From positions 1 through 56,882 of the forward strand of contig VGHK01000012.1 in NCBI GenBank assembly GCA_016868305.1: DNA of 56,882 nt. Direction: 5' to 3'. The stretch comes from Betaproteobacteria bacterium. GTDB lineage: Bacteria; Pseudomonadota; Gammaproteobacteria; Burkholderiales; Burkholderiaceae_A. Of this stretch, positions 2,207-41,937 are shown in pieces. Position 1 is the first letter of the stretch, and each line of letters begins with the position of its first letter. Position numbers and translations under genes: made by a program. The notes below the pieces were generated by a model. That model searched no databases. It was not told the origin of the DNA and saw nothing but the letters and a program-made list of their open reading frames with translations.

Positions 2207-3121
2207 TTAAGGCTCTTGCAGAAAGAGGGCAGGGTCAACCAGCGCGGTGTTTAATGCAACGCTCCAGTGAAGATGGGGCCCGGTAACCCGACCGGTGGCA
2301 CCCACCCGCCCGAGAAGCTGTCCTGTTTGGAGCTGATCGCCCTCGGCTACGTCGATGGTGTCGAGGTGACAGAACATCGATATCAATCCCCGGCCATGGT
2401 CGAGAAAGACCGACTTGCCATTGAAAAAATAATCGCCCGTATTCACGACAAGGCCTGGGGCCGGAGCACGAACCGGGGTACCCACGGGCGCGGCAATATC
2501 CATACCCGAATGGGGATTGCGCGGCTGGTTGTTGAAAAAACGCCGCGAACCAAAGGAGCTTGTGCGTACGCCTGGGACAGGCGAGACAAAAAGGAAGGTA
2601 TTCGGTAGTTCAGGGCTAAAGACAGAAAACGCCTCCCGAATTCTGACCTGTTCCGCCCTGACTCGACTGAGGTCTCGCTCGGAAAGGTCAACATGCTTAG
2701 GCGCGACGGTAAGGTACTGGGTGACATAGTCTTTGCCGGTAACCTGAAAAGGAAGCGCCAATGGTGCGCCAGTAGTTGAACGAAGCTCGGCCTGGGTCTG
2801 GCCAAGGGGCTGACTCAAGGGAATGCCCACCAGCGCAACCCAGCCGCCGGCATGCTGCACCGTGAGCACAGGGTTACCCTGGAAACGCACCTCAGGCATT
2901 GGAGCCTGTGGGCCAACCATGGGTAGAGGCAGAACAGCCACACCGCCGGGAACCAGCGCAGCCCGGGGTAGAGATCGCTCTACGGCCGACATGGCCGGAG
3001 CGTTTGGGGTTGGCGCAGAGGCTCCGGCCTTACGAGGCATCAGCCAGGCGCCGGCATAAACCCCGCCAATACTGCATAAGCCAAGGGCTAGAAAATCTCG
3101 TCTTTGTCTAACGCGGTGCAA
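2207..3121 (-). CDS. Tat-exported M23 (LytM-type) metallopeptidase
   Basis: Predicted periplasmic peptidoglycan endopeptidase of about 304 aa. The C-terminal third has the lysostaphin-type zinc signature: HSGMD (HxxxD) and GPHLHW (HxH). The N-terminus holds a twin-arginine signal (RQRRDFLALG followed by a hydrophobic stretch). I place the start at TTG 3121 because an AGGGGGG Shine-Dalgarno lies 6 nt upstream and the product then opens directly on the Tat signal (M-H-R-V-R-Q-R-R). A GTG at 3163 gives a 318-aa version with a less natural leader. The start region overlaps a small lipoprotein ORF by 14 nt, suggesting translational coupling. Whether it cleaves or only regulates cell-wall enzymes is unknown. 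Confidence 0.8.
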   Translation of the reverse strand: MHRVRQRRDFLALGLCSIGGVYAGAWLMPRKAGASAPTPNAPAMSAVERSLPRAALVPGGVAVLPLPMVGPQAPMPEVRFQGNPVLTVQHAGGWVALVGIPLSQPLGQTQAELRSTTGAPLALPFQVTGKDYVTQYLTVAPKHVDLSERDLSRVRAEQVRIREAFSVFSPELPNTFLFVSPVPGVRTSSFGSRRFFNNQPRNPHSGMDIAAPVGTPVRAPAPGLVVNTGDYFFNGKSVFLDHGRGLISMFCHLDTIDVAEGDQLQTGQLLGRVGATGRVTGPHLHWSVALNTALVDPALFLQEP

Positions 3122-3227
3122 GTGACGCCCCCCTTTCGATGGAATCAATATATCGGCCTGCACATCCCGCGAGCCAGACCAGTAGGGTGGCGGCCAGAAG
3201 CTTAAGGCTGGCCAGTGGCACCCTCAT
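3108..3227 (-). CDS. candidate 39-aa lipoprotein overlapping the M23 start
   Basis: Short ORF read by eye from the gap upstream of the peptidase. It encodes 39 residues with a typical type II signal: MRVPL, a leucine/alanine-rich core, and a lipobox LAGC at residues 19-22, leaving only a 17-18 residue mature peptide (CAGRYIDSIERG then SLAPR). It begins with ATG and ends with TAG inside the first codons of the M23 gene. The upstream Shine-Dalgarno is weak. I do not recognise the family. It could be a genuine small lipoprotein translated just ahead of the peptidase, or a chance ORF whose hydrophobicity mimics a signal. Confidence 0.4.
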   Translation of the reverse strand: MRVPLASLKLLAATLLVWLAGCAGRYIDSIERGASLAPR

Positions 3228-5573: not shown

Positions 5574-8447
5574 TTACAGTGTATCGAGAAAGCTCTTTAG
5601 TTTATCGCTTCGGCTAGGGTGTCGCAGTTTTCGCAGTGCCTTGGCCTCAATCTGGCGAATGCGCTCGCGGGTGACGTCGAACTGCTTGCCCACTTCTTCA
5701 AGGGTGTGGTCGGTGGCCATTTCGACACCAAACCGCATGCGTAGTACCTTTGCCTCGCGGGGGGTGAGCGAGTCGAGCACTTCTTTGACCACATCTCGCA
5801 TGGAGTCTTGCAGTGCGGCCTCGTGGGGCTGCAGGGTGTTTTGATCCTCGATGAAATCCCCAAGGTGTGAATCGTCATCGTCGCCAATAGGGGTTTCCAT
5901 AGAGATGGGCTCTTTGGCGATCTTTAAAATTTTACGAATCTTGTCTTCGGGCATCTCCATTTTGACCGCAAGCTCAGCAGGGTCTGGCTCTTTGCCGGTC
6001 TCTTGGAGCAACTGCCGGGAGATGCGGTTCATTTTGTTGATGGTTTCGATCATGTGCACCGGGATACGAATCGTGCGGGCCTGATCGGCAATCGACCGGG
6101 TGATGGCCTGTCGAATCCACCAGGTGGCATAGGTAGAAAATTTATAGCCTCGGCGGTATTCGAACTTATCGACCGCCTTCATGAGGCCGATATTGCCCTC
6201 TTGAATGAGGTCGAGAAATTGCAGCCCGCGGTTGGTGTACTTCTTGGCGATCGAAATCACCAGACGCAGGTTGGCCTCGGTCATTTCGCGCTTGGCCTCA
6301 CGGGCGCGCTTCTCCCCTTCGATCATCCGACGATTAATCTCACGAAGGTCGGCAAGGGGGAGCACCACCTTAGTTTGAATGGCGATGAGCTTTTGCTGCA
6401 ATTCGTGCAGGGCAGGAAGATTGCGCTCGAGTAAGGCGGACTGCCCCCCTGCCACAGCCATGGCTTTTTTAGAGAAGAAGTCGAGGTTGGTCTCGTTGCC
6501 GCGGAAGTTTTTGATAAACCACTCCACATTGAGACCGACCCGCTCAACCGCAATATTACGCACTGCGCGCTCGGTAACCCGTACCTCTTCTACCTGAGCG
6601 CGAAGGGTGTCGGCCAGCTTTTCAACCATTTTTGCTGTAAACCGAATACCCATGAGCTCGTTAATGATGCTCGACTGCGCCTTTTGGTAAGGGCCCGACT
6701 TATAGCCATCGGTTTCGAAGGCCTTGCGCATCTTCTCGAAATGCTTGGTGATCGCCGTAAACTTTTCAAGCGACGCCTGCTTTCGTTCTTCAAGGCGGGC
6801 AGCACTTGCCTGGTCTTCTGCCGTATCGTCATCTTCTTCGATCGCGATTTCGGCATCGGCTGGCGACAAGAGATCCTCTTCGGGTGCATTGGGGTCGACG
6901 ATTCCATCGACCACCTCGGCAACCGAAATGGTTCCTACCTGAATCTTGTTGGCACTGTCGAGGATCTCGTTAATCGTGGTGGGGCAAGACGCAATAGCCA
7001 GGACCATCTCGCGCAGACCTGCCTCGATGCGTTTTGCGATAGCGATTTCGCCTTCTCGCGTGAGCAGCTCAACGGTGCCCATTTCGCGCATATACATGCG
7101 CACCGGATCGGTGGTGCGACCGAATTCGGAATCGACAACCGTGGACAATGCGGCCTCAGCCTCTTCTTCGGCATCGTCGGTGTCGGAAGCAGGCGTGTTG
7201 CTGACCAGCAGGAGTGTTTCGGTGTCGGGGGTGATCTCATAGACAGAGATATTCCATTCTTGGAACGTCGCGACAATCGATTCCATTTGGTCGGAGTCGA
7301 TCTGAATGTCCGGCAGATGGTCGGTAATCTCTGCATGCGTGAGATAGCCACGTTCCTTACCAAGAACGATAAGCGCTTTGAGCCGCGCCTTACGCGCCTC
7401 TAGCTCCTCGGCAGTAAGGGGCCCGGAGGGCATGAACTCCCAGATCTTTTTGTCCTTAGGCTTGCGCCCACCACGGCGCGGCGCGGCAGCCTCTACCTCT
7501 ACTTCGGGTACGGACTCATCGGCCTCATCATCTGCCTCGGGCACCAGCTCATCGTCGGCGTCTTTGGCCTTGGCCGGGCGGCCGGGTTTTTTTGCTACCT
7601 TGGCTGGGGGCGCCTTGCCTGATTTGGACGGACTCGCTGGCTTCGCGGCCTTTGCTGTTTTTTCTACCTTCTCAGCGCTGTCCTTCGGGGCCTTGTCAGC
7701 CTTGGCCGGTTGCTTGGAAGGCTGTTGCGCGAGCTGCTTAGTGGGCTGCTTAGTGGGCTGCTTAGTGGGCTGCTTAGTTGCCTGCTTAGTTGCCTGCTTA
7801 GTTGCCTGCTTAGTTGCCTGCTTAGTTGCCTGCTTAGTTGCCTGCTTAACTGGCTGCTTAACTGGCTGCTTACCTGACGGCTGAACTGACTTAGCACTGG
7901 TCTGCTTTTTGTCTGTCTGACCACTTTGGGGCTTGGCTGCGGCAGCAGTTGGCTTTGGGTCTGATTTTTTTGCGGCAGGCTTGGGCGCATTTTTGGGTTC
8001 CGCCACAGGCCCCTGCCCCGCAGAGGCCCGAAGCTTGGCAATGACCGACTGCAGGGCCTTATCTCCTGCAGACTTTGGCTCCGAAGGCTTAGTGGCCGCT
8101 TTTGAGGGCGCGGGCTTGGCCTGCGGTGATGGCTTAGCGGTCGGTTTAGAAACAGGCTTAGCGTGTGCCTTGGCTGCCGGCTTGGCCGCTGGCTTGGTAT
8201 CTACCTTGGCAGAAGGCTTGGCCGCCACCTTTACGGGGGGTTTACTTGGCGCCTTGGCAGACGGCGCTGGCAACTGCTTGGGGGATACCTTGGCTAGCTT
8301 TGCGGCCACCGCTGCGGCCGGTTTTTTGCCCGTAGCCGCACTCGCGACCTTAGCCGTTGCGGCTACCTTAGCCGCAGCGGTGCTGGACTTGGCGTCATTT
8401 TTGCCCGCAGTTTTACCCTTATTTGCCAGTTGCTTTCCTGCCGCCAT
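5574..8447 (-). CDS. rpoD: RNA polymerase primary sigma factor RpoD (sigma-70)
   Basis: 957-aa housekeeping sigma factor, far longer than the roughly 610 residues of E. coli. Residues 1 to about 335 form a Lys/Ala/Pro/Thr-rich, low-complexity tail with KQAT/KQPT repeats near 195-235. Conserved sigma-70 parts follow: region 1.1 (about 345-420), region 1.2 ([11 protein letters not shown], about 445), an acidic non-conserved insert, region 2 ([12 protein letters not shown] to [13 protein letters not shown], about 722-790) and region 4 ([14 protein letters not shown] to [18 protein letters not shown], about 890-940). All core motifs are intact. Basic N-terminal tails on RpoD occur in other Burkholderiales as far as I recall, but this one is long. 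It is the last protein gene of the rpsU-dnaG-rpoD string and is followed directly by a tRNA. Confidence 0.97.
7733..7878 (-). repeat. 12-bp tandem repeat inside rpoD
   Basis: On the plus strand the hexamer TGCTTA recurs 12 times at exactly 12-bp spacing from 7735 to 7872, with the intervening six bases varying between three types. In protein this is a run of four-residue units (six KQAT, three KQPT, two KQPV). Because the unit is a multiple of three, slippage would lengthen or shorten RpoD without a frameshift. Confidence 0.9.
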
Positions 8448-12970: not shown

Positions 12971-13957
12971 TTATGCGCCCGACCCGCGCGGATGATGCCG
13001 GCGATAGATGTCTCTTAACCGCGCCTGGGCAACATGGGTGTAGATCTGCGTGGTGGAGATATCGGCATGACCGAGCAGCATCTGCACCACCCGAAGGTCA
13101 GCTCCGTGGTCTAGCAGATGCGTTGCAAATGCATGGCGCAGGCCATGGGGCGACAAGGGAAGATGAATTCCTGCACGGGCTGCATAGCGCTTGATCAGCA
13201 TCCAGAAATACTGACGGGTCATCGGGCCCCCACGGTCGGTCACAAAGGCAGCCTCCGATAGACGGGGACCAAGAATCACAGGGCGCGCCTGAAGGAGGTA
13301 TTGGCTAAGCCAGTCGGCAGCCTCCTGGCCATAGGGCACGAGCCGCTCTTTATTGCCCTTACCCATCACGCGAACCACCCCTTCTGACCTGCCAATGGCA
13401 TGCAGGGGCAGCCCAACCAGCTCGGATACGCGTAGCCCCGTGGCATAGAGCAGTTCCAGCATGGCGCGGTCACGCAGCCCATAGGGCGTTTGCAGATCGG
13501 GGGCTGTCAGCAGGGCCTCGACCTGACCCTCTGCGGGCGCCTTCGGAAAACGCACCGGCTGACGGGCGGGCTGAAGGCCTGCGGTGGGGTCGTCCTGCCG
13601 AAACCCCTGACGTATCAGCCAGCCATAGAACCGACGCAGACACGAGAGCCGTCGATTGGTCGTTGCAGGGCGCTGCTGGGAGAAGGTTTCGGAGACATAG
13701 GCAAGCAGATCGGCACTGGCGAGGCCTTCGATGGAGGCCGCCCCTGGGGCCTGGCTCTGGGTGAGCCAGGCCTGCAGGTGCAGCAGGTCGCGGCGGTAAG
13801 CCTGCTGGGTATTGGTGGAGAGCCCGTCTTCAAGCCAGAGCGCCTGACAAAAAGCGCTGATCCTGGGATTGTCCGCGCTGATTTTAGGATTGCCTGGAAC
13901 TTTTCCGCGGGTAGCCCGGGGGGCTTTCGCTGCGGACTTTTGCCCTGGCCTTGTCAC
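12971..13957 (-). CDS. xerD: site-specific tyrosine recombinase XerD
   Basis: 328-aa chromosome-dimer resolvase. The N-terminal SAM-like domain includes LWLEDGLSTNTQQAYRRDL, which is closer to XerD than XerC. Catalytic residues are all visible: Arg in ATGLRVSEL, Lys in GKGNKERLVP, His-x-x-Arg in HGLRHAFATH, His in LLGHADIST and Tyr in TQIYTHV. It acts with XerC at dif during FtsK-dependent decatenation. The first 30 or so residues are a basic leader (MTRPGQKSAAK...) that may be dispensable. Its start overlaps the queG stop by 4 nt (ATGA), indicating coupling. Confidence 0.93.
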   Translation of the reverse strand: MTRPGQKSAAKAPRATRGKVPGNPKISADNPRISAFCQALWLEDGLSTNTQQAYRRDLLHLQAWLTQSQAPGAASIEGLASADLLAYVSETFSQQRPATTNRRLSCLRRFYGWLIRQGFRQDDPTAGLQPARQPVRFPKAPAEGQVEALLTAPDLQTPYGLRDRAMLELLYATGLRVSELVGLPLHAIGRSEGVVRVMGKGNKERLVPYGQEAADWLSQYLLQARPVILGPRLSEAAFVTDRGGPMTRQYFWMLIKRYAARAGIHLPLSPHGLRHAFATHLLDHGADLRVVQMLLGHADISTTQIYTHVAQARLRDIYRRHHPRGSGA

Positions 13958-15114
13958 GCGACTACCCCTTCCTGCGCAAGGGCCCAGGCAACATGCCGCG
14001 CCACCATGGCATCGGGATAGTCTCGGCGGGCTATGAGGGCAGCACGGATATCGGATGCGCCAACCGTATCTGCGGCACGCGTTGCCGATGCCAGGGCATT
14101 GCCCAGGCCCACGGCAAGGTTGCGCAGCCAGCGCGCATAGCCAATACGCAGAATGGCGCTTCCCTGATGACGGGCATGAAACTCAGCCTCAGACCAGGCA
14201 AAGAGCTCTGTCAGTAAGGCCTGGTCAAGCCCATGGCGCACGGCAAAGTCGGGCAGTGTTGCGGCCTGGGCGAAGCGGTTCCAGGGGCAGACGCGCTGAC
14301 AGTCATCGCAGCCATAGATGCGATTGCCCATGAGAGGCCGAAGCGACTCGGGGATGTCTCCGGAATGCTCGATGGTGAGGTAAGAAATGCAGCGACGGGC
14401 ATCGAGCTGATAGGGGCCGATAAACGCCTTGGTTGGGCAGAGGTCTAGGCAGGCCGTGCAACTGCCGCAATGCCGTTCGATGCTGCTGGGAGCGGGTGCG
14501 AGAACGGGCGCAGACCCGGAGAAACGCAGGTTGGTAAGCAGTGCCCCCAGAAAAAACATCGACCCCGTAGTCGGGTGCAAGAGCAAAGTGTTCTTGCCCC
14601 GCCAGCCGAGACCGGCACGCTCGGCAAGTTCGACTTCCATGAGAGGGGCCGAATCCACACAGGCGCGAAACCGGCCCTCGGGGTAGAGGCTGGCAAACCG
14701 CCGCGCCAATGATGCAATCCTGCGGCGCATTACCTTGTGATAGTCGCGGCCCCGGGCATAGACAGAGACAACGGCGCGGCTCGGCGTATTGACTGCGTCC
14801 TCTTCCTTTTGTCGCCAGTGCGCCTGGGTGCCCCGGGGAAGATAGGGCATGGTGACCATCACCACAGTCTGGGCTCCCGGCAGAAGATCAGCTGGCCGCG
14901 CACGCAGGTCGCGATTGCGCGAGAGATAATCCATGTCACCGGCAAAGCCCTTTTCAAGCCACCGAGCAAATTCATCCATGGGCATGGCTGGGCCTCGGGG
15001 CTTCAGGGGAACCACTGCCAGGCTTGAGAATCCCAGTTCCGAAGCCCATGCCTGAAGCTGCGCGAGGCTCGGGTTAGCATGTCGTGGTGCAACAGGATTG
15101 TGAATGAAAGACAT
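13954..15114 (-). CDS. queG: epoxyqueuosine reductase QueG
   Basis: About 386-aa iron-sulfur, cobalamin-dependent enzyme performing the last step of queuosine formation on tRNA. The family features are seen: DUF1730-type N-terminal half, two [4Fe-4S] clusters (CGSCTACLDLCP and GCDDCQRVCPWN, near residues 210-270) and a HEAT-like C-terminal tail. I choose ATG 15114 (MSFIHN); an upstream start at 15135 would overlap the opposite-strand tsaE start. No dedicated intergenic space separates it from tsaE, so its promoter must lie inside that coding sequence. It overlaps xerD by 4 nt. Confidence 0.95.
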   Translation of the reverse strand: MSFIHNPVAPRHANPSLAQLQAWASELGFSSLAVVPLKPRGPAMPMDEFARWLEKGFAGDMDYLSRNRDLRARPADLLPGAQTVVMVTMPYLPRGTQAHWRQKEEDAVNTPSRAVVSVYARGRDYHKVMRRRIASLARRFASLYPEGRFRACVDSAPLMEVELAERAGLGWRGKNTLLLHPTTGSMFFLGALLTNLRFSGSAPVLAPAPSSIERHCGSCTACLDLCPTKAFIGPYQLDARRCISYLTIEHSGDIPESLRPLMGNRIYGCDDCQRVCPWNRFAQAATLPDFAVRHGLDQALLTELFAWSEAEFHARHQGSAILRIGYARWLRNLAVGLGNALASATRAADTVGASDIRAALIARRDYPDAMVARHVAWALAQEGVVA

Positions 15115-15117
15115 TGT

Positions 15118-17004
15118 GTGATTGTTGACCGACACCGCCTAGACTTCAATTCGGTAACCGAAGACCAGATGATGGTCTTCGGTCAGGCCCTTGCCCAGCT
15201 TGCCCAAGAGGGCCGGATTGCGCGGGTGTATCTGCATGGTGGGCTGGGCGCAGGCAAGACCAGCCTGGCAAGAACCCTGTTGCGCGCACTCGGCGTAGAG
15301 GGTCGCATTAAAAGCCCCAGCTTTGCTATTGCCGAGACCTACACTACCCCGGGGCTGCACTGTGCCCATTTAGACTTTTTCCGCCAGACAGACCCCCTGG
15401 CCTGGCGGGATTCAGGACTTCGGGAACTGCTTGCTGATAGCAGCCTGATTCTTGTGGAATGGCCCGAGAAGGTGCAAGAACTGCCCGAGCCAGATATCGA
15501 CCTGTCAATCGACTGGGCAGACCCAAGTCTGCCCGAAGGTCCGCGACAGCTGGCATTTGTCTTTCGCAGCCTGGAGACGCTGCAGGCCTTTGAAGAGGCC
15601 CTTAAAGGAAGGGTAGTGGCAATACCCGTGGCAGCACCCGGCGGGCCACCAGGCACGGCGGTTACGGACCCTGTGCGTCGATCTCTGGCCCTTGTGCCAG
15701 TGGCTGCTGGGCTGATGGCGGTGATGCCCAGACCCGCGCAGGCCGTTGAAGTGGTTGCCGTGCGCGTATGGCCTGCCGCCAACTACACGCGCGTGGCAAT
15801 TGAACACGACACGGCAAAGCTCTTTTATTCCACCACGCGGCTTACAAAACCCGAAAGGCTGGTGGTCGATCTGCAGAACATGCGCCTTGGGCATACCCTA
15901 AGGCAGATCATCGCCCGAATTACGCCCAATGACCCGTTTATTGGTCAGGTTCGGGTAGGGCAGTTCAAGCCCCATGTGGTGCGAATGGTCTTTGACCTGA
16001 AGCAGTCCGTGCGGGCACAGGTCTTTACCCTGCCACCGATTGCCCAGTATCGACACCGATTGGTAATCGACCTGTACCCCGAAGTGACAGAGGATCCGCT
16101 GCTGGCATTTCTCAGGGAATATGAGGCTGCCACCGCGAAGCGCGGCAGTAGCGGGCCTCCCAACATGCGATCAGACACGCCCGAGATCGCCCAGGCGCCC
16201 ACCCCATCAGCACCAACTGCTGAGCCGCCAGCCACTGCGACAGGCGAGCCTCGGCCTAGCGCCCCGAGCCAAGAGGCTCGCCGTCCCCCGGCCGCAGCCT
16301 TCATCACCATTGCCATCGATGCGGGGCACGGCGGAGAAGATCCTGGGGCCATCGGCCGGGCCGGTACGCGCGAGAAAGATGTGGTGCTGCGGATTGCCCG
16401 AGAGATGAAACGCCAGATTGATGCTCGCCCCAACATGCGGGCCTTTCTCACTCGGGATGGAGACTATTTTGTGCCCCTGGCCCGCAGGGTGGCCCTGGCC
16501 CGGCAGGTAAATGCAGACCTCTTCGTGTCGGTCCATGCCGATGCCTGGGTATCGCCCACAGCCGAGGGTGCCTCGGTGTTTGCGCTCTCTGAGAAGGGGG
16601 CAAGCAGTGCTGCGGCACGCTGGATGGCCAACAAAGAAAATGAGTCTGACTCCATTGGCGGGGTAAAGCTCGGTCAGATTGACGACCTGCTTACCCAGAC
16701 GCTACTGGATATGTCGACAACCGCCCAGATTAAAGACTCTCTGAAGCTGGGCCAGTCAGTGCTGCGTGAAATTGGAAGGATCAACCGTCTGCATAAGCCC
16801 CAGGTAGAACAGGCTGGATTTGCCGTGCTGCGGGCCCCGGATATTCCGTCCATTCTGGTGGAAACGGCCTTTATCAGTAATCCGGAGGAAGAGCGTCGGC
16901 TGCGGGATGCGGCCTATCAGCGGTCAGTCGCGGCGGCCATTCAAGACGGGATTGACGACTACCTGGCCCGCAATCCGCCTCTGGCAAAGAGAACCCGGGC
17001 CTAG
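15118..17004 (+). CDS. fused TsaE (tRNA t6A ATPase) - AmiC (N-acetylmuramoyl-L-alanine amidase)
   Basis: One uninterrupted frame encodes two proteins that are normally separate. The first part (to about 15610) is TsaE: P-loop GGLGAGKTSLA, then SPSFAIAETY and ILVEWPEK. Without a stop the frame continues into an export signal (VRRSLALVPVAAGL to PAQA), an AMIN domain (VVAVRVWPAANYTRV onward) and a zinc Amidase_3 domain with ligands in DAGHGG, GTREKD, SVHAD and ILVETAFIS. TsaE acts in the cytoplasm and AmiC in the periplasm, so a fusion is paradoxical. A good internal Shine-Dalgarno with GTG at 15616 could give a free amidase of about 462 aa. I chose GTG 15118 for the N-terminus; ATG 15079 adds 13 residues. 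A missed indel near 15600-15620 is the alternative, since both other frames hold stops there. Confidence 0.85.
   Translation: MIVDRHRLDFNSVTEDQMMVFGQALAQLAQEGRIARVYLHGGLGAGKTSLARTLLRALGVEGRIKSPSFAIAETYTTPGLHCAHLDFFRQTDPLAWRDSGLRELLADSSLILVEWPEKVQELPEPDIDLSIDWADPSLPEGPRQLAFVFRSLETLQAFEEALKGRVVAIPVAAPGGPPGTAVTDPVRRSLALVPVAAGLMAVMPRPAQAVEVVAVRVWPAANYTRVAIEHDTAKLFYSTTRLTKPERLVVDLQNMRLGHTLRQIIARITPNDPFIGQVRVGQFKPHVVRMVFDLKQSVRAQVFTLPPIAQYRHRLVIDLYPEVTEDPLLAFLREYEAATAKRGSSGPPNMRSDTPEIAQAPTPSAPTAEPPATATGEPRPSAPSQEARRPPAAAFITIAIDAGHGGEDPGAIGRAGTREKDVVLRIAREMKRQIDARPNMRAFLTRDGDYFVPLARRVALARQVNADLFVSVHADAWVSPTAEGASVFALSEKGASSAAARWMANKENESDSIGGVKLGQIDDLLTQTLLDMSTTAQIKDSLKLGQSVLREIGRINRLHKPQVEQAGFAVLRAPDIPSILVETAFISNPEEERRLRDAAYQRSVAAAIQDGIDDYLARNPPLAKRTRA
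15603..15618 (+). promoter_or_regulatory. amiC: internal Shine-Dalgarno and GTG start for a separate AmiC
   Basis: AAAGGAAGG followed by GTA and GTG (15616-15618), in frame with the fused ORF. Initiation here would yield MAIPVAAPGG... leading into the twin-arginine-like signal RRSLAL about 20 residues later, the arrangement expected for a Tat-exported AmiC. GTG at 15673 (giving M-R-R-S-L-A-L) is a second candidate but lacks as good a ribosome site. Confidence 0.55.
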
Positions 17005-17026: not shown

Positions 17027-18829
17027 ATGGCTTCGATTGCCCTACTTCCAGATACCTTGATTAGCCAGATCGCTGCAGGCGAAGTGATCGAGCGACCAGC
17101 TTCGGTGGTCAAGGAGCTACTGGACAATGCCCTGGATGCCCTGGCCCAACACATTTCGGTAACGCTCGAAGACGGGGGCAGCCGCAGCATCCGTATCCGT
17201 GACGATGGCCTCGGCATTGCTGCCGAGGATCTGCCTCTGGCCGTAGCCCGCCACGCCACAAGCAAGATTCGTAGCCTTGAGGACCTCGAGCAGGTCAAGA
17301 GCCATGGGTTTCGCGGAGAGGCGCTCGCGGCAATTGCCTCGGTAGCCCAGGTATCGATTACCAGCTGCACCGCAAAGAGTAACCATGCCCATCGCCTCGC
17401 CAATGAACAAGGCCGGTGGCAGGTAAGCCCGGCCTCTGGGGGGCAGGGCACCCTCGTGGAGGTCTTGGGGCTTTTTCACCATGTTCCGGCTCGCCGTCGG
17501 TTTTTGAAGAGTCCGGCAACCGAGTTCAGCCATGCCAAAGAGGCCTGGACCCGTGCCGCCCTTTCCCGGCCCGACTGCGCCTTTGAGCTCAGTCATAACG
17601 GCCGCGTCGTGGCCGCCCTGGCAGCGGAATCAGAGGGGCGGCGTGTGGCGCGACTGCTCGACACAGCCCCAGACCGGCTGCGTGAGGTTCGGTACGAGGC
17701 GGGCCCTCTGCAGCTTAGCGCATGGCTACAGTCGCCCACAGACGCACAGGGCCGGGCAGGCGACCGCCAGTATTTTTTTGTCAATGGGCGTTGTGTGCGA
17801 GACCGCACATTGGCCCATGCCTTGCGCACGGCCTATGCGGATATTCTGCATGGCGATCGGCAGCCTCGGTTTGTGGTGTTTCTGGAGATTGCGCCAGAGG
17901 CGGTGGATGTCAATGTCCATCCGGCCAAGGCCGAGGTGCGCTTTCGCGAGGGCCATGCGGTCTATCAGGCCGTGCTCAAGGCCTGCCGAGAGGGGCTTGC
18001 CCGGCCCCTGGGGCTCGACCAGGGGATCCCCATGGTAACGGCAGGTACTGCGGCCCCAGACACAGATGCCACAGCCCTGGCGGCCGACCCATCAGCGTCA
18101 GTGGAGCGGCTCCTGCGAACCTCTGGCGGCCCGGCGCATCAGTTTCCCCTGGCCATGCATAGCCCATGGTCAGCAACACGCGCAGAGTTCCTGCGCGAAC
18201 CGGCACAGCCCGCATGGGGATCGGCGACTGCGGGAGCGTCCTGGGGCAATGACGACCATCCGCTGGGGTTTGCCCTGGCGCAGTTACACGGGATTTATAT
18301 TCTTGCCCAGAATCGTCAGGGCCTCATTTTGGTAGACATGCATGCGGCCCACGAGCGCATCGTCTATGAGCGGCTTAAGGCCGAGTCGCGCGGCCAGATG
18401 CAGAGGCTGCTGGAGCCCGTGGCGCTTTCTGCAAACCCCTTGGAGCGTGAGACCGCGGTAAAGCATCGGTCTGTCTTGGAAGACCTTGGGTTTTCGATTT
18501 CTCTGCTCTCTGCCGATAGCCTTGCGATACGGGGAGTTCCCACGCTGCTAAGCCAGGCAAGCGTCGAGCCCCTGGTGCGCGATACCCTGCGGGAGCTCGC
18601 ACAGCATGGCCAGACCTATGCGGCAACCGAGGCGCGGGATGCCATTCTCGCCTCAATGGCCTGTCATGGGGCGGTGCGCGCGCACCGCAGCCTTTCTATT
18701 CCAGAGATGAATAGCCTATTGCGCGACATGGAGCGCACTGAGCGCGCCGATCAATGTAACCATGGAAGGCCCACCTGGGTTGCGCTTGATCTGAAGACCC
18801 TCGACCGGCTTTTTTTCCGGGGCCAGTAG
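17027..18829 (+). CDS. mutL: DNA mismatch repair protein MutL
   Basis: 600-aa GHKL ATPase of methyl-independent mismatch repair. The N-terminal ATPase shows [20 protein letters not shown] (Glu and Asn of the ATP site kept), DDGLGI, TSKI and [11 protein letters not shown]. The C-terminal domain carries [12 protein letters not shown], a DxHA(x)2E(x)4E endonuclease-type motif with Met in place of the usual Gln, plus [10 protein letters not shown] and CNHGRPT, so a latent nicking activity is likely, unlike E. coli MutL. Start is ATG 17027, 22 nt after the amidase stop; a longer upstream frame only reads through amiC and is ignored. Confidence 0.95.
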
Positions 18830-40572: not shown

Positions 40573-41937
40573 ATGCGCCTTCAAACGCTCAGACTCTGGA
40601 CCTTTGGCACTGCGGGATTTGGACTGGTGATGGTGGTGATCACCAGCCTTGGCATCTCGGCAGTAACAGAAGCAGAATCCAAAATGCTCAGCACGCCTAT
40701 TGTGCAGGAGCTTCCCGCGCCTATGTTGCAAGACCAGCTTGAGGCCCTGGCAAGCCACGGCCTCGAGCTCGCCCGCGAAGACGAGGTGCGCAAAGACGAC
40801 ACGATTGCCCGGCTCTTTGAGCGTCTGGGCGTTGATGACCGGGATGCCCTGGGGTATTTTATGGCTGATCGCGCCCGGCTACAGGTGCTGCGGGCAAATA
40901 TTGGCAAAACTGCGCTGGTGCACACAGACCTCAACGGCGCCCTACTGCGGCTTCAGCTTATGGACGGGCTGGACGCCTGGGTCATGGAGCGCACCGGTCA
41001 GGGCCAGTTCTCCACCCGCACGGGCAAGCTTGGAGCAGAGATACAGACAGAGCATCGCTCTGTCCTGGTGGGCGAATCGTTCTTTGGCGCAATGGACCAA
41101 GCGGGGGTGCCCAATGCCATCACAGAAGATGTGGTGAACCTCTTTGAATCAGACCTCGACTTTCGGCGTCAGGTGAAGCCTGGGGACAAGGTGCGGGTAA
41201 TCTACGAGAACCATAAAGTAGCAGGCAGAGAGATAGGCGACTACCGCCTCATCGCAGTGCGGTTCGAGGCCTCAGGCACGCCCTATGAGGCGCTCTTCTT
41301 CAACCCGCAGGGCACGGCCCGCGGAAACTACTATGACGCAGAAGGTAAATCGGTAAAGCGGGGATTTCTGGCAGCGCCCCTACGGTTTACCCGAATCAGC
41401 TCAAGCTTTGCGCGGTACCGGCTGCACCCCCTCTTTGGCGATCCCCGTGCCCATCAGGGGGTGGACTATGCAGCGCCCATTGGAACTCCCGTGCGTTCGG
41501 TGGCTGATGGCGTGATAACCAACCGGGGCTGGAACGGCGGCTACGGCAATGCCATCGAGATACAACACAATGCCCGGTACAGCACCTACTACGCCCATCT
41601 CTCAAATTTCGCCGCAGGCATGATCGCAGGGCGAGAGGTTCGGATGGGCGAGGTAATTGGCTATGTGGGTGCGACCGGCTGGGCTACCGGCCCACACCTG
41701 CATTACGAGTTCCGGGTGCAAGGCAGGTCCATCGACCCCATTCGCATTGCCCAGGAGAATCCCCAGGTGCCGAGTCTTACGGGTGAGGCCTTATCCCGAT
41801 TCCTGGTGGTTGCCGAAGACCTGCGCAAGCGACTTACTCTTCTAGACAGCGTGAATACGGCAGAAGCAGTACAAACCGCACCGGCCGGCCTGCCGCCCGC
41901 CAACCGCACGCCCACCACCTTAGCCGCCCGGCGTTAG
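40573..41937 (+). CDS. M23 family metallopeptidase with N-terminal membrane anchor
   Basis: 454-aa periplasmic-facing peptidase, MepM/OapA-like. A signal-anchor hydrophobic segment lies at residues 8-28. The catalytic LytM domain near residues 285-385 holds HQGVDYAAPIGTPVR (HxxxD) and GPHLHYEFRV (HxH). Central domain VVNLFESDLDFRRQVKPGDKVRVIY is typical of MepM-type proteins that cleave cross-links during wall expansion. ATG 40573 has a TACAAT -10-like hexamer 9 nt upstream and a short AAGG. anmK follows 33 bases later. Confidence 0.9.
   Translation: MRLQTLRLWTFGTAGFGLVMVVITSLGISAVTEAESKMLSTPIVQELPAPMLQDQLEALASHGLELAREDEVRKDDTIARLFERLGVDDRDALGYFMADRARLQVLRANIGKTALVHTDLNGALLRLQLMDGLDAWVMERTGQGQFSTRTGKLGAEIQTEHRSVLVGESFFGAMDQAGVPNAITEDVVNLFESDLDFRRQVKPGDKVRVIYENHKVAGREIGDYRLIAVRFEASGTPYEALFFNPQGTARGNYYDAEGKSVKRGFLAAPLRFTRISSSFARYRLHPLFGDPRAHQGVDYAAPIGTPVRSVADGVITNRGWNGGYGNAIEIQHNARYSTYYAHLSNFAAGMIAGREVRMGEVIGYVGATGWATGPHLHYEFRVQGRSIDPIRIAQENPQVPSLTGEALSRFLVVAEDLRKRLTLLDSVNTAEAVQTAPAGLPPANRTPTTLAARR

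Follow-up and report, generated by a model that had tools for sequence, protein, structure and literature searches.

A lineage-conserved tsaE-amiC gene fusion with an internal Tat-type export signal in Burkholderiales

How can an ATPase of tRNA modification, which works in the cytoplasm, and a cell wall amidase, which works in the periplasm, be encoded by one open frame, and is this frame a real gene? The question is raised by a segment of the window (the whole 56,882 bp stretch analysed here) in which the sequence and its ORF list reveal a tsaE-amiC frame without any stop from GTG 15118 to the TAG codon given in Table 1. It codes for 628 amino acids, and a longer version that starts at ATG 15079 and ends at the same stop codes for 641. 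This single frame contains a complete TsaE domain followed by a linker, a Tat-type signal and the AMIN and Amidase_3 domains. Pfam recognizes the three domains in the fused protein with E-values of 1.2e-27 (TsaE), 1.2e-17 (AMIN) and 3.4e-46 (Amidase_3), and all scores exceed the curated cut-offs. A reading made from the sequence only had described TsaE and AmiC in one in-frame ORF with the export signal in its middle; Pfam, the frame check and the relatives presented below agree with that description.

Table 1. Coordinates of the features of the tsaE-amiC locus and its immediate neighbours in the window.
Feature	Position	Strand	Basis
Gene head-to-head with the TsaE start, presumably QueG-like from its sequence	13954..15114	-	ORF list
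TsaE (YjeE) domain, residues 1-163	15118..15606	+	PF02367, TIGR00150; Walker A GGLGAGKTS; E-W pair VEWPEK
Shine-Dalgarno-like AAAGGAAGG	15604..15612	+	Duplex energy -7.3
Linker, residues 164-186, in frame, sequence not conserved	15607..15675	+	Alignment of the nine fused proteins
Possible internal start GTG (V167) of a 462-aa pre-AmiC	15616..15618	+	Sequence, Shine-Dalgarno energy
Internal Tat-type signal, residues 187-209, RRSLALVPVAAGLMAVMPRPAQA, probable signal peptidase site AQA/VE	15676..15744	+	Cleavage inferred
AMIN domain of AmiC	15757..16074	+	PF11741 (E 1.2e-17); aligns to the E. coli AmiC structure 4bin
Amidase_3 catalytic domain of AmiC	16309..16956	+	PF01520; 4bin_A 376 bits overall
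Stop codon TAG of the fused frame	17002..17004	+	Sequence and ORF list
Gene directly downstream (ATG 17027), presumably mutL from its sequence	17027..18829	+	ORF list

GTG 15118 is the better TsaE start because the motif ATG/GTG-ATT-GTT-GA(C/T) recurs there in nine of the 12 genomes printed for comparison, the window's own genome (G000) included. Seven of these 12 (G000, G001, G002, G004, G005, G006 and G008) have TGATTGTTGACCG in common, synonymous sites included, while G003 and G009 are one base off it; the printed TsaE starts of G007, G011 and G019 are not comparable with this sequence. The ATG of the QueG-like gene and GTG 15118 face each other at 15112-15120 with three bases between them. 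On the other side the fused frame is followed by mutL and miaA, as is the tsaE-amidase pair of E. coli. At a distance from this locus, positions 7720-7891 of the window hold a tandem 12-base repeat (about 11 copies) within an RpoD-like gene, where it encodes a lysine-, glutamine- and threonine-rich stretch of a long N-terminal extension.

The TsaE part scores 96.8 bits with PF02367 (cut-off 26.6) and 90.6 bits with TIGR00150 (cut-off 60.1). Its best solved relatives are the H. influenzae YjeE structure sequences (E 4e-22). An AlphaFold2 model of the fused protein, built from nine rows, has a mean pLDDT of 58.9; it is good for TsaE but poor in the amidase region, so that only two features were taken from it: the TsaE end, where the final helix is predicted at residues 152-162, and the low-confidence linker, with pLDDT below 50 at residues 166-209. 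T48, E114 and W115 are invariant in the nine fused proteins and presumably correspond to E. coli T43, E108 and W109. The alignment shows F at residue 88 of the window protein and Y in the eight other fused proteins, a position that we equate, by mapping via H. influenzae YjeE, with E. coli Y82. According to PMC4330362, the Walker A threonine T43 and the E-W pair E108/W109 of E. coli TsaE are required for nucleotide binding and activity, the Y82A mutant lost activity, and TsaE is essential in E. coli. The tyrosine is thus missing from the window protein, although F88 would be a conservative change that we do not take as excluding it from TsaE. TsaE acts by binding TsaD-TsaB with ATP, as described in PMC9654439 and PMC4330362. 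All 13 genomes searched contain TsaD together with a second PF00814 locus. A search for TsaE gave exactly one above the cut-off in each of 13 genomes; weak second matches, found in seven, remain below it.

The C-terminal part has E. coli AmiC (4bin) as its best solved relative (E 3e-111). The DAGHGG, TREKD, SVHAD and VETAF regions, which are presumably the zinc-site motifs, align to 4bin, and the active-site motifs are retained. The NCBIfam AmiC model NF038267 scores 463 bits, below its 700-bit cut-off, yet it is the best NCBIfam match; the AmiA and AmiB models score lower and are likewise below their cut-offs. One Amidase_3 was found in 13 of 15 genomes and none in G006 and G010, the contigs of which end before it. 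The fused frame carries the sole TsaE above the cut-off and, where the contig extends that far, the sole Amidase_3 found. Peptidase_M23 is present in 13 of 13 genomes. In the window one M23 protein, with a Tat-like RQRRDFLALG segment, is encoded at 2207-3163 on the minus strand and a second one at 40573-41937; these could be amidase activators.

The distribution of the fusion was established with a protein search of 60 relatives and the window's own genome, 61 in all, 26 of which (own included) belong to the family. The open frames given by that search can pass through stops, for example in G011, G014 and G020. The state of the junction, defined for this reason by the frame check and the family searches, is readable in the 45 genomes that have TsaE and AmiC on one stretch. 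The family genomes G010, G017 and G021 are unreadable there owing to contig ends or split contigs, and 22 of the 35 genomes outside the family were fetched and classified. Fusions occur in nine of the 45 readable genomes, all nine among the 23 from the family; the 22 readable genomes from other families have none, and neither do the 34 readable named loci (37 were returned, the other three being TsaE alone). Bordetella, Achromobacter and Limnohabitans are among the best named matches, which points to a probable place in Burkholderiales. Eight of the ten readable genomes of the genus are fused (G000-G007, the G006 contig ending inside the AmiC part) and two, G008 and G009, are split. The ninth fusion is found in the sister genus, in G019, where G011 has the same frame interrupted by one TAA and G013, G015 and G023 have the genes in different frames. 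In G010 the frame is open up to the contig end, which lies in the linker. Wider surveys of the order (300 genomes, 293 with matches) and of the class (369 genomes, 346 with matches) gave, among the matches listed, 16 long amidase frames from the order (L107-L122) and six long TsaE frames from the class (L123-L128). No further fusion was found among these 22 candidates fetched from the matches listed: 21 have separate genes, and in L124 the TsaE frame stops soon past the domain, with no amidase match in the stretch fetched. The statement of the sequence-only reading that relatives have adjacent separate genes is therefore right for the genomes read outside the family and wrong for the window's own genus.

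Separate searches with PF02367 and PF01520 led to identical stop-to-stop frames in eight of the nine fused genomes (658 in G000, 695 in G001, 662 in G002, 638 in G003, 687 in G004, 661 in G005, 1156 in G007 and 640 in G019), and to differing ones in G008 (183/410), G009 (171/430) and G011 (192/447). Where TsaE stops, an AmiC frame other than that of TsaE is already open in 32 of the 36 split relatives and in 33 of the 34 named loci; the overlaps in the split G009 and G008 are of the ATGA and TTGA type, respectively. The linker plus signal of G000 has three and two stops in its two other frames, in line with the stops noticed at the junction in both of them from the sequence. The G000 linker, when its bases are shuffled at the same composition, stays open 36% of the time, and the agreement of frame between the two parts brings, by reasoning, a further factor of roughly one third. 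A single fused locus is for these reasons weak evidence. What lifts the fusion above chance is that it recurs in relatives whose linkers differ greatly; after base shuffling, the linkers remain open with probabilities of 0.17 to 0.65.

The linkers themselves show substitutions that favour synonymous sites in two pairs of genomes, with Fisher p values that come from short linkers. Between G004 and G006 the linker has w 0.30 and dS 0.46, a synonymous excess with a one-sided Fisher p of 0.014, and a 6-codon indel leaves the frame intact. Between G001 and G002 w is 0.27 (p 0.017 on rounded counts; 17 gapped positions). In remoter pairs the synonymous sites of the linker are saturated or nearly so and just 21-24% of residues are shared; the frame is still held. 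The linker evolves like coding sequence, which fits a translated, loosely constrained tether. On this comparative sequence evidence, tsaE-amiC is a genuine, lineage-conserved gene fusion.

The history of the fusion can be followed on trees of different quality. The backbone is poorly supported in the tree built from TsaE plus AmiC; the one of six neighbour proteins supports the genus (99/98), places the long-branched G007 first (82/90) and puts G008 and G009 inside. The fewest changes of state on the neighbour tree are three. The favoured scenario would be a single gain close to the root of the genus, one reversion in G008 and G009, and a separate gain in G019. The order of gain and loss is uncertain, because a grouping of the fused members of the genus with the unreadable G010 is not clearly rejected (p-AU 0.052) and because of long branches, that of G007 included. 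As evidence that would speak against the fusion, the sequence-only reading had named close relatives in which the genes are separate and the flanks identical. G008 and G009 do have separate genes, but their sequences have diverged and the tree nests both in the genus. Since these two genomes live with split genes, the fusion is not required.

The junction encodes a segment, RRSLALVPVAAGLMAVMPRPAQA, with the layout of a Tat signal: a twin arginine, a hydrophobic core and an AxA-type site. It is internal in the full frame and would be N-terminal only if GTG 15616 is used. An AxA-like site is found in nine of nine fused proteins and the RR pair in seven, RR being lost at the L005 and L006 junctions of G001 and G002, which have KR and RSR, respectively. 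This loss makes Tat routing less sure in G001 and G002; the signal segment of this pair is under weaker constraint (w 0.63). The replacements do not settle the export route, since PMC5539426 reports that Tat can accept signals with a single arginine or a twin lysine if these are more hydrophobic. TatC scores above its cut-off in 14 of 15 genomes, including the window genome; it is missing in G006, a genome 75% complete, and in G008 and G004 it is interrupted by stops or fragmented. The signal region of G005, G004 and G006 (L004, L010 and L033) measures 47 residues with two hydrophobic stretches, against 23 residues in the window. Peak hydrophobicity is on average higher in the nine fused than in the 14 split family members, both as a 15-residue mean (1.97 versus 1.67, p 0.012) and over 19 residues (1.52 versus 1.32, p 0.037). 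Lineage may explain this, since a comparison restricted to the two genera with fusions gives no significant difference (p 0.12 over 15 residues and 0.60 over 19); a stronger membrane anchor in the fused proteins is for that reason not clear.

The sequence-only reading also put forward a strong Shine-Dalgarno sequence and an internal start at GTG 15616, which would give 462 amino acids with RR 20 residues on. Both of these details are correct: GTG 15616 is residue 167 (V180 in the 641-residue numbering) and RR occupies residues 187-188. The codon sits just past the last predicted TsaE helix. Its anti-Shine-Dalgarno duplex energy of -7.3 places it in the best 4% of the window's NTG codons (4945 on the two strands), and the TsaE start GTG 15118 reaches only -1.2. 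Because the internal GTG is better served than the TsaE start, AmiC made on its own may predominate in the G000 species. The relatives were scanned for ATG, GTG and TTG. None of these codons occurs in the linkers of G002, G006 and G019; the nearest start upstream of RR lies 51 residues away in G002 and 59 in G006, within the TsaE part in both cases, and there is none in G019 within the 60 residues scanned. G001, G003, G004, G005 and G007 do offer NTG codons close to the signal, none of them matching an energy of -7.3 (the best are a TTG at -34 in G004, with -5.6, and an ATG at -57 in G003, with -6.0). Start codons lie within the hydrophobic part of the signal in G001 and G002. In G019 an ATG is found four residues into the RR motif, and its Shine-Dalgarno-like stretch is strong (-8.6), though distant; internal products from such starts in the signal are possible in these three genomes. 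The internal start thus remains plausible in the G000 species, where some free AmiC may be made from V167, but it is not conserved in the relatives, and a role as a conserved device is not supported given the linkers that lack ATG, GTG and TTG.

The sequence leads us to favour, with somewhat more belief than doubt, the production of one polypeptide from which TsaE and AmiC are separated by export. Ribosomes would read through the junction to give a single chain, whose TsaE domain would fold, remain in the cytoplasm and serve TsaB-TsaD. The internal signal would take the folded AmiC part through Tat, leaving its N-terminal side on the cytoplasmic face, and signal peptidase would cleave at the AxA-type site. 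The products would be periplasmic AmiC and a TsaE that keeps a signal-peptide tail and might be membrane-bound or trimmed; in the G000 species the second start at GTG 15616 may supply extra free pre-AmiC. According to PMC7317946 and PMC5539426, Tat signals adopt a hairpin on insertion, the twin arginines lying at the cytoplasmic side of TatC, and actinobacterial Rieske proteins contain Tat signals that are internal. These proteins likewise have a Tat-type signal inside the chain, after parts that are left behind, although the preceding part consists of Sec-inserted membrane helices in the Rieske proteins and of a soluble cytoplasmic ATPase in the window protein. By analogy, a TsaE at the N-terminus could stay inside while AmiC crosses.

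The locus might instead work as two overlapping in-frame cistrons, in which read-through only adds a harmless tail to TsaE, AmiC is mainly made from its own internal start and the missing stop is neutral. We regard this as a possibility of lesser weight, rather unlikely on balance. The position and energy of GTG 15616 fit such an organization, as do the overlaps in the split G009 and G008, the AmiC frame that is open, in another frame, at the TsaE stop of most split relatives and named loci, and the starts in the signal of G019, G002 and G001. It does not account well for the linkers of G002, G006 and G019, which are without a canonical start (the nearest upstream lying in TsaE or not being found), for the synonymous excess of the linker in two pairs, or for a frame held across linkers that have so few residues in common. 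A more trivial explanation, also offered by the sequence-only reading, is a sequencing or assembly indel through which a stop was lost or the frame changed. With 97 contigs the assembly is a draft, and the other two frames are stopped at the junction, but the repetition of the in-frame state in eight other genomes rules this explanation out in practice, and we give it next to no credence.

Fusion of interacting functions is a classic hint of coupling. An intact, membrane-held fusion could tie the t6A supply or the ATP state of TsaE to septal wall cleavage, a function that the two separate gains favoured by the tree and the on average more hydrophobic signal core of the fused proteins would suit. 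There is also an older connection: YjeE was proposed to act in wall assembly, in part from its potentially co-transcribed amidase gene (Teplyakov 2002, cited in PMC6733980), and S. pneumoniae mutants of UbK, a YjeE homologue, show wall defects according to PMC6733980. Such coupling nevertheless looks improbable to us in view of the AxA-like cleavage site retained by every fused protein, the hydrophobicity difference that loses significance within the two fusion-holding genera, the variable linker, and the complete conventional t6A role that TsaE already has. In its fullest form the intact chain would cross the inner membrane, placing the t6A ATPase on its inner side and the sole Amidase_3 found on its outer side, and cutting or retention of the chain would tie septal cleavage to translation capacity; we likewise hold this to be improbable. 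A regulatory link between t6A and the wall, a possibility that the sequence-only reading had raised as well, is speculative.

The one-polypeptide model, like its alternatives, builds on parts that are well known. The neighbouring tsaE (yjeE) and amiB/amiC genes of proteobacteria belong to the same two families and have the same order as the fusion; outside the family they are, in the cases read, separate genes with mostly overlapping frames, whereas the window has one frame without a stop. The septal amidase AmiC of E. coli (4bin) has AMIN plus Amidase_3 and an RR signal with an AxA-like site, as the window protein does, but the latter carries its signal internally, after 186 residues that make up TsaE and the linker. 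AmiA and AmiC of enteric bacteria are exported by Tat. Proteins of the ToxR/CadC type also combine a cytoplasmic N-terminal domain, a single hydrophobic segment and a periplasmic C-terminal domain in one chain; these are Sec-inserted, uncleaved sensors, whereas the signal of the fused protein is Tat-like and looks cleavable. A search of titles and abstract openings, which most subscription journals lie beyond, returned no TsaE-AmiC fusion. The parts are known; the tsaE-amiC architecture appears to be a new variation on them. If made as one chain, it would provide a cytoplasmic enzyme that is essential in E. coli and a periplasmic amidase from a single polypeptide, in which a Tat-type signal follows a folded ATPase domain. 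It would then offer a natural way to find out whether Tat can handle a long, folded extension at the N-terminus. It also reopens the old suggestion of a connection between YjeE and the cell wall, now with a physical link that probably arose twice.
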